From: an uncultured SAR86 cluster bacterium
GTDB taxonomy: Bacteria > Pseudomonadota > Gammaproteobacteria > Magnimaribacterales > TMED112
Direction of reading: 5' to 3'
Assembly (NCBI GenBank): GCA_902610995.1
Contig: CACLXU010000001.1
Coordinates: forward strand, 111,207 to 144,421
DNA length: 33,215 nt
Shown here: piece after piece, positions 21,323-27,969 of the stretch
Layout: each line of letters starts with the position of its first letter
How positions within the stretch are numbered: position 1 is the first letter of the stretch
Translations under genes and position numbers: made by a program
Notes under the pieces: model-generated
What the model was told of the DNA's origin: nothing
What the model saw: only the letters and a program-made list of their open reading frames with translations
The model's database searches: none

Positions 21323-22186
21323 ATGAATAACATTATTCTCCCATTAATACTTATTTTGACAAGATTTATTTCTCTTTTACCTCGATCATGGTTTAATGGC
21401 AAAAATTCATATCTCTGGAAATTTTTAGGTGGATTCTTAAAAAGAAGGAAATCAATCATTAATGCAAACATAGATCATTGTTTTGGAGATCTAAGTGAAT
21501 TCGAGAAGTCACAACTGAAAGATAATATTTGGAATGAAACATACAGAGCTCTTTATGAGAATAATTTTGCTTGGAATGCTTCAAATAAACAGATTGATAA
21601 ATTAAAAATAGAATTCATTGGTAAAGACATTTTAGAAAATGCTATGAAAGCAAAAAGGGGTGTTCTTATACTATTTAGACATACCCTTTACTTAGAGCTT
21701 TCAGCGAGGTTGCTTGGGAGGTTTTTTGATATCTTTGGTTTAGAAAGGCCAAATAATAACTCATTAGTTCAGAAAATTCAGACAAATGGAAGAATGAAAT
21801 CAGTGAAAGGAATAATTTCAAATTCTGATATAAAAAAGTGCCTAAATCTTCTTAGGGATGGTCACATGGTGATGTATGGGCCAGATCAAGATTATAGAAA
21901 TAAACATTCTGTAGTTTCAGAGTTTTACGGTAAAAAGTGTTTAACAACAACAGTACCAATTAAATTGAAAAAGATGTCTGGATGTCATGTAATTTATTTT
22001 GACTTTTTTAGAGTTAAAGAAAAATTTCAAATGGTAGTGAAGGAATTAAATAATCAATTAAATTCAGAAGAAGAGTTTGCAAAATCATTAAATAAGGAAA
22101 TAGAAGCCAGTATTTCTAAAGCACCTGAACAATACCTTTGGCATCACAGAAGATTTAAATCACAATATCCAGAGATATATGAGTAA
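21323..22186 (+). CDS. Lipid A late acyltransferase, LpxL/HtrB family
   Basis: Transfers a secondary acyl chain to Kdo-lipid A at the inner membrane. It has 287 residues, slightly short. An N-terminal hydrophobic anchor (LPLILILTRFISLLP) precedes the catalytic H-x4-E motif H120-TLYL-E125 in LILFRHTLYLE. Further LpxL signatures are GPDQDY (186-191) and the C-terminal LWHHRRFKS. Head-to-head with waaA, whose product makes its substrate. LpxL and LpxM cannot be told apart by eye. The stop overlaps the next methyltransferase by 8 bases. No Shine-Dalgarno is visible upstream. Confidence 0.9.
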   Translation: MNNIILPLILILTRFISLLPRSWFNGKNSYLWKFLGGFLKRRKSIINANIDHCFGDLSEFEKSQLKDNIWNETYRALYENNFAWNASNKQIDKLKIEFIGKDILENAMKAKRGVLILFRHTLYLELSARLLGRFFDIFGLERPNNNSLVQKIQTNGRMKSVKGIISNSDIKKCLNLLRDGHMVMYGPDQDYRNKHSVVSEFYGKKCLTTTVPIKLKKMSGCHVIYFDFFRVKEKFQMVVKELNNQLNSEEEFAKSLNKEIEASISKAPEQYLWHHRRFKSQYPEIYE

Positions 22187-22787
22187 TAGAGATTTTGACC
22201 ATGTTAAAGGTTTTCTTCACAAAGATGAGGGAAACTTTCTCTGCGCTCTAGTAGAAGAATACTGTCGAAATGGCTTGGTTATTGAAATTGGATCCTATTG
22301 CGGAAAGTCTGCATGCTACTTAGCAGATGCTGCTAAAGTATCATCAGCTGTTTTTGTATCTATAGACCATCATAGAGGGTCAGAGGAACATCAACCAGGA
22401 GAGTTATACCATGACGTGGAAGAGTATGATCATGACCTGGATAGAATTAATACCCTTCCCTCTCTAATAAAAAACTTAACTCAAGCAAGATTAGATAAAT
22501 ATGTCATTCCAATAGTTGGAGATTCTGTTACTGCTTCAAAAATTATCAAAGATAACGTTTCAATGGTTTTCATAGATGGAAGTCATACATTTGAGTCAGC
22601 AAGAAATGATTTTAATTCTTGGCACAAAAAAATTAAGTCTGGGGGTATTCTTGCTATACATGATATTTATGATTCTATTGAGGAAGGTGGACAAGCACCG
22701 AAAGAGATTATGGAAATGGCACTCGGTAATAATTTTAAGGTTCTTGATAGAAAAAAAAGCCTAGTTGCCTTAATTAAGCAAGAATAG
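22179..22787 (+). CDS. Class I SAM-dependent methyltransferase, substrate unknown
   Basis: A 202-residue protein with a Rossmann methyltransferase fold. SAM motif I is VIEIGSYCGKSACYL (34-48), the acidic SIDHH follows at 61-65, and VFIDGSHTFESARNDF (130-145) and GGILAIHDIYD are typical of the Methyltransf_24 group. The start overlaps the lpxL-like gene by 8 bases, so it is probably translated from the same mRNA. It may act on lipid A, core sugar or another envelope substrate; this is inferred from position only. It ends tail-to-tail with the opposite-strand toroid-like gene, overlapping by 14 bases. Confidence 0.85.
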   Translation: MSNRDFDHVKGFLHKDEGNFLCALVEEYCRNGLVIEIGSYCGKSACYLADAAKVSSAVFVSIDHHRGSEEHQPGELYHDVEEYDHDLDRINTLPSLIKNLTQARLDKYVIPIVGDSVTASKIIKDNVSMVFIDGSHTFESARNDFNSWHKKIKSGGILAIHDIYDSIEEGGQAPKEIMEMALGNNFKVLDRKKSLVALIKQE

Positions 22788-23748
22788 CTTTAGGCTTATC
22801 CGTAATGTTATAGAGTGCATCTGCAGCAATAATAACTGCTGCATTTGTCCAGGTTGATCTCTCGTCAGGCCAGTAAATATTTTCTGAAAATTGGTACCCA
22901 GTTGAAAAAATTCCGTCATCACCTCTAAATTTCATGATCTCATTAAAAATTTGCTCTGCAAATTTTTTTTCGTCAGACCTGACTAAGGCAATTATCGCCT
23001 CAGAACTCTCTGCAAACGTTACCCATGGTTCCTCAATTACACACTTTATGCCTATTCCGTCAACATAAAAATTTTGTAGACTTTTAACTAAGTTTCCATC
23101 CTTTAGTAGCCCTGAAAGGTAAGGATAATAACAATCCATAGAAAATCTTGATCTATCAATTTTATCTCTATTGAATCTAACTGAATTAAGATCAAATATT
23201 TTTTTTATTTCTGCTATCTCATTCTCTAATTTTAATGATCGTATTCCTAAAATTTTATAGATTGATGAGGTACATTTAAGTGAAAGAAAAATTGAGCTAG
23301 TAGCTGTAATTAACGAGTTATCGGATAGCCCCTTTTTGTCTGTTGCCCAGTAAAAATAGCCAAATTTATCTCTTGCCTCTAAAGTTTTGTTAGTTATTCC
23401 TCTTAATACTTCAAGGTTATCTAATAGAAACTTTTTATTATTGGTTGAATAATAATACTGCAACAAAGCAACAGCCAGATATGGTGCATGATGAAATTCA
23501 AAATGATCATGTACTATCTGTTGATTCTGGAAAAGTGGAGGGATCAAAAATTGATCATTGAGGTTTTGAAGGAACCATTCAATGCCTGCATGAAATGGTT
23601 CATGTTCTTCGTAGATTGCAAGTGAAATTAAGCATTCAAGATGATCCCAAGGGTCACACTTACCTTTGTCATCCCAGACAATAGATCCATCGCTCATTTG
23701 GTTGTCCTTTATCCAAGATATGTTGTTTTTAAAATCTACTTTTTTCAT
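22774..23748 (-). CDS. Unrecognised protein, predicted alpha/alpha-toroid (prenyltransferase/terpene cyclase-like fold)
   Basis: I do not recognise this 324-residue protein with certainty. It has no signal peptide or membrane helix. It appears to consist of repeated helical hairpins, each bringing aromatic/acidic turns: MSDGSIVWDDKGKCDPWDH, HFEFHHAPYLAVALLQYYY, YFYWATDKKGLSDNSLITA, EEPWVTFAESSEAIIAL and NIYWPDERSTWTNAAVIIA. That pattern is typical of alpha/alpha toroids such as prenyltransferase/squalene-cyclase relatives or six-hairpin glycosidases. The ATG at 23748 overlaps the upstream methyltransferase stop as ATGA and is preferred to a GTG at 23766. Position after a GT4 enzyme and a methyltransferase suggests a role in an envelope glycan or glycolipid. 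Confidence 0.75.
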   Translation of the reverse strand: MKKVDFKNNISWIKDNQMSDGSIVWDDKGKCDPWDHLECLISLAIYEEHEPFHAGIEWFLQNLNDQFLIPPLFQNQQIVHDHFEFHHAPYLAVALLQYYYSTNNKKFLLDNLEVLRGITNKTLEARDKFGYFYWATDKKGLSDNSLITATSSIFLSLKCTSSIYKILGIRSLKLENEIAEIKKIFDLNSVRFNRDKIDRSRFSMDCYYPYLSGLLKDGNLVKSLQNFYVDGIGIKCVIEEPWVTFAESSEAIIALVRSDEKKFAEQIFNEIMKFRGDDGIFSTGYQFSENIYWPDERSTWTNAAVIIAADALYNITDKPKAILA

Positions 23749-24440
23749 TTTTTTAGGTAAAAACACTCGCTCTTTCCAAAAAGAGGATTAATTAATTTCT
23801 CAAGATTTGCGCTAAAAATTGCTTGGCCAAACATTTGTTTAACGAGTAATTCATGAAATGATTTTAAAAACTTTGAGTCATTCATTTTATTTCTGGATCT
23901 GATTATCCAGTATAAAGAGTGAAATGCATGTTGCTTATGTTTTTTAAATACTTTAAGTTCTTGTTTTCTAAAGGCTTCCTGTAGAAAACTTTTTGTAAAA
24001 ATCCTAATGTGTCCTCCAGGAGTTTGTTGGTATTCTTTTGAGAATAACCAGCAAATCCTCTCTGGCAAATAACTGGGTACACTTATAAGAAGCACGCCAT
24101 TAGGCTTAAGAATTCTTTTGCACTCTTGAAGTACTTTTTCAAAATTTGGGATATGTTCTAAAACCTCGGAGCAGATAACTAAATCTTGAGATGAACTGTC
24201 TATATTTAAGTCTCTAATATCGCCTTCAACAAACTTATAGCTATTCTGATTTTTACAAATATGATTTGTGAATTCTGAGTTCAGTTTACTAATTTCTTCA
24301 CAGGAATGATCAACACCAATTAGATTGCAAGTATGGAGCTTTGAGCTTAGTGATTTGAGGTGCCTACCGTTACCACAACCTATGTCTGCAAAAGACTTAA
24401 CTTTTTTGAGATTTAGCAAGTTGAAATTAAATGTGTCCAT
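23745..24440 (-). CDS. Class I SAM-dependent methyltransferase (Methyltransf_11 type), substrate unknown
   Basis: A 231-residue methyltransferase. Motif I is FADIGCGNGRHLKSL (17-31), the acidic GVDHS follows, then VEGDIRDL, VICSEVLEHI and LKPNGVLLISVPSYLP. The C-terminal half (HIRIFTKSFLQEAF..., then a basic stretch KHKQHAFHSLYWIIRSR) resembles methyltransferases acting on sugars or isoprenoid-linked substrates, but this is weak. It overlaps the GT4 gene by 14 bases upstream and the toroid-like gene by 4 bases downstream, so the three are likely translated together. Confidence 0.88.
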   Translation of the reverse strand: MDTFNFNLLNLKKVKSFADIGCGNGRHLKSLSSKLHTCNLIGVDHSCEEISKLNSEFTNHICKNQNSYKFVEGDIRDLNIDSSSQDLVICSEVLEHIPNFEKVLQECKRILKPNGVLLISVPSYLPERICWLFSKEYQQTPGGHIRIFTKSFLQEAFRKQELKVFKKHKQHAFHSLYWIIRSRNKMNDSKFLKSFHELLVKQMFGQAIFSANLEKLINPLFGKSECFYLKK

Positions 24441-25659
24441 TGATTATTTTTTGGTACAGAAATTCAAGTTTTCTAGCATACTCGTCCCAACCAAAAAAAT
24501 CATCCCTTCTTTCTTTGCAATTTTTTGAAATTTTAGCTCTCATGTCTTTATTTAAAACAAGTTTCTCAATACATTGTGCAAGCTCATGAGAATCTTTTGG
24601 ATTGAATGATATTCCTGCATGGCCCATTAGCTCTGGAAGAGAGCCTCTATTAGATGATATGATAGGCAACCCTATTGCTATCATTTCAATAAGTGGAAAT
24701 CCAAACCCCTCATATAATGATCCACTTATTCCAATATCACATTCAGATAAAGTACTAATTAGTTTCTCTCTAGAAAGCTTTCTCTTAATAAAAACTTTTT
24801 TCTTAATTCCAAGCTGATCAATTAAGTTAATGTTCTGATCTCTAATATCACCAATAATTGTCAAAGTTAACTCATTTATATTTTTTTGTGCTTCATGAAA
24901 TCCTTTCAAAATATTTGCTAAATTTTTCATGGGGACATCGGAACTAATTATCGTTACAAGATTATTTTGGAAATTTTCTTTTTCTCTAAATTTATAATCC
25001 TCCAAATTGATCCCATTCCACAAAACTTCAATATTTGTCTCAGGAAAATCATAATATTTGTAGATATCCTTTTTTGAATTCTGAGATGGAGTGACTACCA
25101 TCCGAGATTGTTGTAAATTTTTCTTTTGGAAATTTAAAAATGAATACCATCGTCTAATTGAAAGCTTTTTCAATATACTTTCTTCATTATCTAAATCTAT
25201 CATCCTATCCACCTGTATAGGATGATGTAAGGTGGTGACAAGTCGATTAGAAATAATGTCTGGGAATAAACTTAATGATTGGTTGTCATGAAAAATATCA
25301 TAATTTTCTTTATTTTTTATGAAGTGTTTATTTCTTCGGAGTCGCTCCCCGAAGAAAATCGGCTCTGAAAAAGTTCCTGTTATAGCTTCAAAAAAATCTT
25401 GAAATTCAAATAGGTCTTTTTTCCTAGTTCTGAAGAGTTCGATTCTTTTTCCAAAATCGAATGTATCGAAGTACTGAGGAGTTTCTACTTCAATGACTGA
25501 AATATTATCTGCAACTCTTGGTAATGGATTTCCTGAATAGATAGTAATTTCATGGCCAAATTTAGCAAGAGCTTCACAAACATTCTTTAAATATACACCC
25601 TGACCTCCTGAATAGGGATCACTTCTATAGCTTAAAAAAGCAATTTTATGTTTGGTCAT
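24427..25659 (-). CDS. GT4-family glycosyltransferase
   Basis: GT-B fold retaining glycosyltransferase of 410 residues. The N-terminal acceptor domain opens with KIAFLSYRSDPYSGGQGVYL, the usual Gly-rich loop. The donor domain has LWNGINLEDY, and the E-x7-E motif is E317...E325 in SLYEGFGFPLIEM, which binds the nucleotide sugar. No membrane helix is evident. It is coupled to ilvE by a TAATG overlap and to the two genes after it. In Pseudomonas ilvE also flanks the LPS core cluster, so a role in LPS core or another envelope glycan is plausible; donor and acceptor are unknown. Confidence 0.92.
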   Translation of the reverse strand: MTKHKIAFLSYRSDPYSGGQGVYLKNVCEALAKFGHEITIYSGNPLPRVADNISVIEVETPQYFDTFDFGKRIELFRTRKKDLFEFQDFFEAITGTFSEPIFFGERLRRNKHFIKNKENYDIFHDNQSLSLFPDIISNRLVTTLHHPIQVDRMIDLDNEESILKKLSIRRWYSFLNFQKKNLQQSRMVVTPSQNSKKDIYKYYDFPETNIEVLWNGINLEDYKFREKENFQNNLVTIISSDVPMKNLANILKGFHEAQKNINELTLTIIGDIRDQNINLIDQLGIKKKVFIKRKLSREKLISTLSECDIGISGSLYEGFGFPLIEMIAIGLPIISSNRGSLPELMGHAGISFNPKDSHELAQCIEKLVLNKDMRAKISKNCKERRDDFFGWDEYARKLEFLYQKIINGHI

Positions 25660-26607: not shown

Positions 26608-27969
26608 ATGAATGAAAATATTTTTAGAGCCTATGACGTTAGAGGAAATTCATCGCATGATTTAACAGACGATGTTGTAAAAATAATAGGCTCTGTATTA
26701 GGTGAATGTGTAAGAGAGTTCGGGGATAATTCGATTTACCTTGGCCATGATAGCAGGCTATCAAAAGATAGAATTAAAAAGAGTTTAATTTTGGGGATCC
26801 ATTCTGCTGGAGTGGATGTAAATTATCTTGGGCTCGTTCCAACACCTATGGTGTACTACGCAACAAAAAAAGGGATTTCGAATCATGGAGTAATGATTAC
26901 CGGAAGCCATAATCCCAAAGAGGATAATGGTTTAAAAATTGTCATAGATGGAAATTCTATTTCTGGTCTAGAAATTAAAAAAAGAGTTAAAAATTATAAA
27001 TATGATAAGGATTTGACTGCTCAAACTTTTAGCCAAGACTTAACTAATGATTATTTAAATGAGATTAAAAGAAATGCCCCTATAGGAAAACCAATGAAAG
27101 TCATACTTGATGCAGGCAACGGAGCTGCAGGGCCGCTAGCAAAAAGAGTTTTTGAGAATATTGGAATAGATATAATTTCTATAAATGAAGAGCCAGATGG
27201 TAATTTTCCAAATCATCATCCAGATCCTGGAAAAGAAAAGAATTTAGTCCAATTAAAGGAGGAAATTATAAGGAATGATGCAGACATTGGTTTTGCTTTT
27301 GATGGTGATGGTGACAGAGTAGGTTTAGTGGCAAAGAGTGGAAATCAAGTTCTTTCGGACCACATTATCATGCTTCTAAGTCAATACTTTTTGAAATTAA
27401 AAAAAGGGTCAATTGTTTATGATGTTAAATGCTCGAATGAATTACCAAAACTCATATTAGAGCATGGCGGTAAGCCAGTCATGGAAAAAACAGGACACTT
27501 TAACATTAAAAATCGGATTAAGGAGACCTCGGCTATTTTGGGAGGTGAAATGTCAGGTCACATATTTATCAATCATAACTGGTATGGATTTGATGATGCT
27601 ATTTATACTGCTGCAATAATTACCAGCATACTTTCAAATGATAAACACACTTTAGATGAAATGGTTTCAAAATTTCCTAAAACGTATTCGACTGAGGAGC
27701 TCAACTTAAATGTTAAAGATGAACAAAAATTTGGTTATGTTAAAACATTTATTGAAAAAATGAATTTTCCAAATGCAGATGTCAATCTTTTGGATGGTGT
27801 AAGAGTTAGTTATGAAAATTCATGGGGACTTCTAAGAGCATCGAACACCTCGCCAAAATTAGTATTAAGGTTTGAAGGCAACAGTCAGGATGATTTGGAA
27901 GATATAAAAGAAAAATTTGAAACAAACTTAAAAATGATCTTTCCAGATCTTGAATTAATTTACTCTTAG
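26608..27969 (+). CDS. Phosphomannomutase/phosphoglucomutase (AlgC-like)
   Basis: Interconverts hexose 6- and 1-phosphates, supplying nucleotide sugars for LPS and other envelope glycans. It has 453 residues (AlgC about 463). The phosphoserine is S100 in TGSHNP (98-103). The metal loop is DGDGDR (232-237), the sugar-specificity loop GEMSGH (313-318), and the phosphate-binding loop is RASNTSPKLVLRFEG near the C terminus. The starts of ilvE and this gene are divergent, 40 bases apart. It meets mrcA tail-to-tail with one base between the stops. Confidence 0.94.
   Translation: MNENIFRAYDVRGNSSHDLTDDVVKIIGSVLGECVREFGDNSIYLGHDSRLSKDRIKKSLILGIHSAGVDVNYLGLVPTPMVYYATKKGISNHGVMITGSHNPKEDNGLKIVIDGNSISGLEIKKRVKNYKYDKDLTAQTFSQDLTNDYLNEIKRNAPIGKPMKVILDAGNGAAGPLAKRVFENIGIDIISINEEPDGNFPNHHPDPGKEKNLVQLKEEIIRNDADIGFAFDGDGDRVGLVAKSGNQVLSDHIIMLLSQYFLKLKKGSIVYDVKCSNELPKLILEHGGKPVMEKTGHFNIKNRIKETSAILGGEMSGHIFINHNWYGFDDAIYTAAIITSILSNDKHTLDEMVSKFPKTYSTEELNLNVKDEQKFGYVKTFIEKMNFPNADVNLLDGVRVSYENSWGLLRASNTSPKLVLRFEGNSQDDLEDIKEKFETNLKMIFPDLELIYS

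Follow-up and report, generated by a model that had tools for sequence, protein, structure and literature searches.

A homologue of the methylmannose polysaccharide gene cluster of Actinobacteria in marine SAR86 bacteria: four genes with a cytosolic methylated polysaccharide as their proposed product

What is made by three tightly overlapping genes, one of which encodes a 324-residue protein that the domain databases do not name? The question is raised by a locus of an uncultured SAR86 cluster bacterium (Gammaproteobacteria), found in a stretch of 33,215 nucleotides (hereafter the window; contig CACLXU010000001.1, positions 111,207 to 144,421, forward strand) of an 861-kb assembly (GCA_902610995.1) that is 80% complete. 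Here a family 4 glycosyltransferase (GT4) gene, a methyltransferase gene and the gene for the 324-residue protein follow ilvE on the minus strand. We consider it very likely that they are part of a four-gene cluster homologous to the 3-O-methylmannose polysaccharide (MMP) cluster of Actinobacteria, for which we propose a cytosolic methylated polysaccharide as the product. The actinobacterial cluster is described as consisting of meT1, mmpH, pmeT3 and manT (PMC9883506). The window holds the following counterparts:

22179..22787, plus strand: meT1 homologue, proposed reducing-end 1-O-methyltransferase, convergent with mmpH
22774..23748, minus strand: mmpH homologue, proposed (alpha/alpha)6 endo-alpha-glycosidase, 324 aa if started at ATG and 330 aa if started at an upstream GTG
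23745..24440, minus strand: pmeT3 homologue, 231 aa, class I S-adenosylmethionine-dependent methyltransferase, proposed 3-O-methyltransferase
24427..25659, minus strand: manT homologue, 410 aa, GT4 glycosyltransferase, proposed alpha-(1->4)-mannosyltransferase with GDP-mannose as candidate donor

The GT4 and methyltransferase genes overlap by 14 bases and the methyltransferase and mmpH genes by 4, as a preliminary description made from the sequence of the window had it; ilvE and the GT4 start overlap by a single base. That description took these three genes for the whole group. The trio itself is real; however, the convergent plus-strand meT1 gene, which overlaps the 3' end of mmpH by 14 bases, belongs to it too, making the group one of four.

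The 324-residue protein matched no family in Pfam at E 1 or in NCBIfam at E 0.1, and was identified by a sequence search of solved structures: residues 17-322 of its 330-residue form match 7QSJ, deposited as 'Methylmannose polysaccharide hydrolase (MmpH)' and being the mycobacterial MMP endo-mannosidase, with a phmmer E of 1e-37. The plus-strand methyltransferase matches 6G7D (phmmer E 1.1e-40; runner-up 0.2), which we take to be the structure of MeT1. The GT4 protein matches 7QSG over nearly its full length (phmmer E 6.7e-49; runner-up chain 3.6e-11); the depositors labelled this entry 'D-inositol 3-phosphate glycosyltransferase', and we infer that it is ManT from the fit of the residue numbers of PMC9883506 to it. 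For the second methyltransferase, solved structures gave matches to general methyltransferases only, and its AlphaFold2 (AF2) model (pLDDT 41) was not usable. It carries the Pfam domain Methyltransf_11 (8.1e-22) and shares 32% identity (E 4.9e-45) with the protein encoded between manT and mmpH by the actinomycete Nonomuraea gerenzanensis, whose locus has the same order, manT-pmeT3-mmpH, with a convergent meT1 further on. For three of the four window proteins, the MMP-pathway enzymes are by a wide margin the closest solved proteins in sequence. The coupling of a GT4 enzyme to a sugar-type methyltransferase, recognized from the outset, is that of a ManT and a pMeT3 homologue.

The AF2 model of the MmpH homologue, built from 3 sequences (mean pLDDT 77.8, pTM 0.84; unreliable at residues 72-83, 133-145 and 190-196), is mostly helical, and its top solved matches are glycosidases of the (alpha/alpha)6 type. 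The best of these is again 7QSJ, both in Foldseek (E 1.3e-14, TM 0.79) and in VIA-align (Z 33.5, rmsd 3.1, 307 aligned residues; next Z 26.6), which bears out the alpha/alpha-toroid that had been suspected. Such a toroid is the general fold of (alpha/alpha)6 glycosidases, and the protein could on that ground be a catabolic exo-glycosidase of the GH125 or GH15 kind, with a function unrelated to its neighbours; MmpH has been compared with both families (PMC9883506). We regard this as very improbable: a GH125 or GH15 sequence match is absent at the Pfam threshold given above, the MmpH-type DPWD and AExxE motifs are found instead, MmpH is the only strong sequence match among solved structures, and the trio is fixed in all 55 proteobacterial loci examined.

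These 55 comprise 47 distinct SAR86 loci (the window, L046 and L051-L095) and 8 further proteobacterial loci. A non-random choice of 45 of the SAR86 loci was made from 176 matching genomes so as to span all 21 matching genera, long contigs being preferred. The locus L045, from the same contig region as L051, was left out of the trees, the clade tests, the ManT alignment, the 47-row residue counts and the final neighbourhood counts; it is still included in the first-pass neighbourhood counts and the first MmpH residue counts. Window residues Asp32, Asp35 and Glu247 correspond to Asp47, Asp50 and Glu262 of MmpH, and thereby supply the catalytic Asp/Glu cluster that had been sought in the toroid. 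The equivalents of MmpH Asp47, Trp49, Asp50, Met215, Tyr219, Glu262, Glu265 and Trp315 are identical in 47/47 SAR86 rows of a MAFFT alignment (13 rows of a type A, discussed below, and 34 others); in the other Proteobacteria Asp47 is retained in 7/8 and Asp50 in 4/8. Those of ManT His142, Lys240, Glu313 and Glu321 are identical in 57/57 rows. The MmpH homologue has no strongly hydrophobic 19-residue stretch (top mean hydropathy 1.12), in keeping with the cytosolic location first assigned to it.

The order manT-pmeT3-mmpH on a single strand recurs in all 47 SAR86 loci and in all 8 of the others; hence, the trio is not a chance grouping but the conserved unit that the preliminary description had expected. 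It is accompanied by meT1 in 46/47 SAR86 loci, convergent within 1.2 kb in 45/47, the sole one without it in the stretch examined being L088. The same gene is present in 6/8 of the non-SAR86 loci, and in the two without it (L097 and L098) mmpH lies about 2 kb or less from a contig end.

How far does the cluster extend? The SAR86 order shows 4 families and 22 genera, in agreement with PMC11582366. Of its 203 genomes examined, 176 carry mmpH, which is present in all but one of the 22 genera, in 39 of the 40 genomes of at least 90% completeness, and in 20/21 genomes of the window's own family. The presence surveys covered Pseudomonadota, the Nonomuraea locus being the one actinomycete locus compared besides. 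An even sample of the class had mmpH in 9 of 369 genomes, 4 of them from the window's order; a phylum-wide sample gave 5 of 398, the window's own genome included. By these counts, mmpH is near-core in SAR86 and rare elsewhere in Pseudomonadota. A scan of viral contigs found no relative; a pattern scan of genome contigs, whose patterns reach close relatives only, returned just two named loci.

From these homologies we propose the following mechanism. ManT would extend short methylated oligosaccharides in alpha-(1->4) linkage, drawing a hexose (which in mycobacteria is mannose) from a nucleotide sugar; pMeT3 would methylate O-3 of the newly added unit; MmpH, as an endo-hydrolase, would cleave mature chains to short primers; and MeT1 would cap fragments having a free reducing end with a 1-O-methyl group. 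The process would be self-recycling, with each polymer seeding daughter polymers, following the model put forward in PMC9883506. A Gram-negative marine bacterium would then contain, as the product, a methylated polysaccharide that is cytosolic, helical and lipophilic and binds long acyl chains. Polymethylated polysaccharides are reported to bind long acyl chains in vitro as 1:1 complexes (PMC4555173), and an acyl-CoA buffer would make sense in SAR86 because of its heavy investment in beta-oxidation (PMC11582366). Beta-oxidation alone cannot be the reason, however, since the cluster is kept by the window's family (f1), which its small genomes, its restriction to one genus and its long branch mark as probably CHAB-I-7, a family described as being without fadB (PMC11582366). 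An MMP-negative mutant of Mycobacterium smegmatis grows slower at 15 C (PMC9883506); by analogy, this suggests that the polymer may have a membrane or cold role.

Certain features of the surroundings of the cluster and of its sugar chemistry weigh against equating it with an MMP system. As to the surroundings, lpxL is a neighbour in 46/47 and waaA in 45/47 SAR86 loci, and some loci of family f4 lie among genes for the lipopolysaccharide (LPS) core: a stretch of one of them (L093:2369-13024) has a GT9 heptosyltransferase, a GT4 enzyme, a WaaP-like kinase, HldE and an epimerase. In a gammaproteobacterium outside SAR86, an exporter-like ABC-transporter gene stands between manT and pmeT3 (L099:9614-11515, minus strand), with waaA beyond meT1. 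Such neighbours would suit enzymes that assemble or shorten a methylated glycan carried by the LPS core or another envelope lipid, and the preliminary description had accordingly favoured an envelope glycolipid modification. The closeness to waaA, lpxL and phosphomannomutase on which it drew holds in SAR86 but not beyond: among the 8 non-SAR86 loci waaA is nearby in one, and lpxL, ilvE and the mutase in none. We did not follow the envelope reading because its lipid A/Kdo neighbours are constant in SAR86 but not elsewhere. It also appears improbable on other counts: three of the four proteins match cytosolic MMP enzymes best, the substrates of the four homologues are soluble oligosaccharides of the cytosol, hydropathy showed neither a membrane segment nor a signal, and the cluster occurs in a Gram-positive actinomycete as well.

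The mutase is a constant neighbour of the cluster in SAR86:

26608..27969, plus strand: phosphomannomutase/phosphoglucomutase with Pfam PGM_PMM domains

It is found in 46/47 SAR86 loci and in 0/8 of the others, and could feed a sugar nucleotide; that it is a member of the system is only a guess. Two further neighbourhoods may be recorded. In an f2 genome, panB and panC (pantothenate, toward CoA) lie between meT1 and lpxL (L057:11109-12835, plus strand). In an f1 genome, a CBS-domain nucleotidyltransferase gene (L113:1135-2175, plus strand) adjoins a UDP-GlcNAc 2-epimerase-like gene, and may belong to a locus for a nonulosonic-acid surface sugar.

As to the sugar, MMP requires GDP-mannose. The GDP-mannose pyrophosphorylase (GMP) domain of TIGR01479 is present in 6 of the 40 high-quality SAR86 genomes (G054, G113, G129, G183, G191 and G197), the remaining TIGR01479 matches being to the cupin end of phosphomannose isomerase (PMI) only or very weak; it is missing in 34/40, and was not found in the window's own 80% complete genome. 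ManT Asp293, a residue suggested to contact guanine (PMC9883506), is changed in 47/47 SAR86 rows. In MmpH, Asn101 and Phe102, which line a neighbouring putative subsite, are both replaced by His in the window; over the 47 SAR86 rows, His occurs at 101 in 20 and at 102 in 16.

It is conceivable, if on balance doubtful, that the same machinery works here on another sugar: SAR86 ManT would take UDP-glucose (from GalU) or another NDP-hexose, and the product would be a new polymethylated polysaccharide rather than MMP. The rarity of the GMP domain in SAR86 (missing in only 1/8 other carriers) and the loss of Asp293 favour this, as do the nucleotidyltransferases that are present: PF00483 matches GalU and a MurU-like protein in both of the genomes G010 and G014, and in G014 also a 455-aa frame of GlmU length. 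At a locus of another gammaproteobacterium, a GalU gene lies directly upstream of manT (L096:10930-11826, minus strand). The catalytic residues of both MmpH and ManT are nevertheless unchanged; Asp293 is lost in 6/8 other carriers too, and 7 of those 8 carriers have the GMP domain; and GDP-mannose could be made by an unrecognised guanylyltransferase, either MurU-like or, where present, a cytidylyltransferase-cupin fusion. PF12804 matches further frames of 455, 390 and 243 aa in G010 and of 242 aa in G014.

The fusion is a 260-aa protein (L104:1474-2256, minus strand; C1:82710-83489 in the window's own genome) that joins a cytidylyltransferase-like domain to a cupin of the mannose-6-phosphate-isomerase type and has no fitting NCBIfam name. 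It has matches in 153/203 SAR86 genomes, some of them only to the cytidylyltransferase or cupin domain of another protein. As a general mannose-1-phosphate nucleotidyltransferase it is out, since G010 and G014 have mmpH without it. With the GMP domain mostly missing and Asp293 of ManT changed, the donor may be GDP-mannose, made by a guanylyltransferase that escaped recognition, or a different sugar nucleotide, and the polymer may be MMP itself or another polymethylated polysaccharide.

The history of the cluster was approached with trees of the 'quick' type, in which the tested groups were named after a tree had been seen. The SAR86 rows come together as a single branch in the tree of ManT (support 98) and in that of MmpH (support 100), the ManT and pMeT3 trees track the SAR86 families, and both MmpH and ManT of L046 group within family f3. 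In the MmpH tree, the 7 f1 rows and 6 of the 20 f3 rows form a separate clade, type A (support 100), and the same f1 and f3 clade recurs in the MeT1 tree (support 99). The ManT data reject the type-A clade (p 0.003). A single f3 clade is rejected by the MmpH data (p 2e-71) but not by those of MeT1 (p 0.13), so that co-transfer of mmpH and meT1 between families is only a suggestion. A half-cluster swap or an old duplication within SAR86 would explain the MmpH/MeT1 clade, and is offered as a lead. An extended form of the other-sugar proposal, which we hold just as tentatively, is that SAR86, an order among the most abundant bacterial ones of the ocean, makes a so far unseen polymethylated polysaccharide whose donor is not GDP-mannose and which serves almost throughout the order to carry acyl chains, with the type-A MmpH-MeT1 pair (His/His) representing a second specificity and this half-cluster having been exchanged between families.

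MMP has been described from mycobacteria and a few other actinomycetes, where the function proposed for it is linked to the fatty acid synthase (FAS) and lipid-rich envelope of these bacteria. SAR86, we assume, uses FAS-II, not FAS-I. Our literature searches, which covered open-licence papers and so may miss a report elsewhere, found no account of the MMP cluster outside Actinobacteria, and the word 'methylmannose' is absent from the main text of PMC11582366. According to the same paper, SAR86 can account for up to 6% of the microbial community at the ocean surface. A whole cluster that is near-core in a streamlined, Gram-negative marine order would free the MMP-type polymer from its mycobacterial setting, and the purpose of such polymers becomes directly testable, as an isolate of SAR86 is in culture and the metabolism of the order centres on breaking down fatty acids.

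Among known systems, GH125 and GH15 glycosidases share with the window protein the (alpha/alpha)6 toroid but not its sequence. The mycobacterial methylglucose lipopolysaccharide (MGLP) pathway is alike in that its cytosolic alpha-(1->4) polymethylated polysaccharide is proposed to bind acyl-CoA (PMC4555173); it differs in being described as glucose-based and as using other enzymes. From the mycobacterial MMP cluster, that of SAR86 differs in belonging to Gram-negative Gammaproteobacteria, with proteins about 28-40% identical, in having lipid A/Kdo genes as neighbours, in mostly lacking the usual GDP-mannose pyrophosphorylase, and in the changes at ManT Asp293 and MmpH Asn101/Phe102. The two nevertheless share the conserved catalytic residues and the fold of MmpH, and the MMP cluster of M. 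hassiacum has all four genes in the same order by locus tag, from MHAS_04402 to 04405 (PMC9883506).

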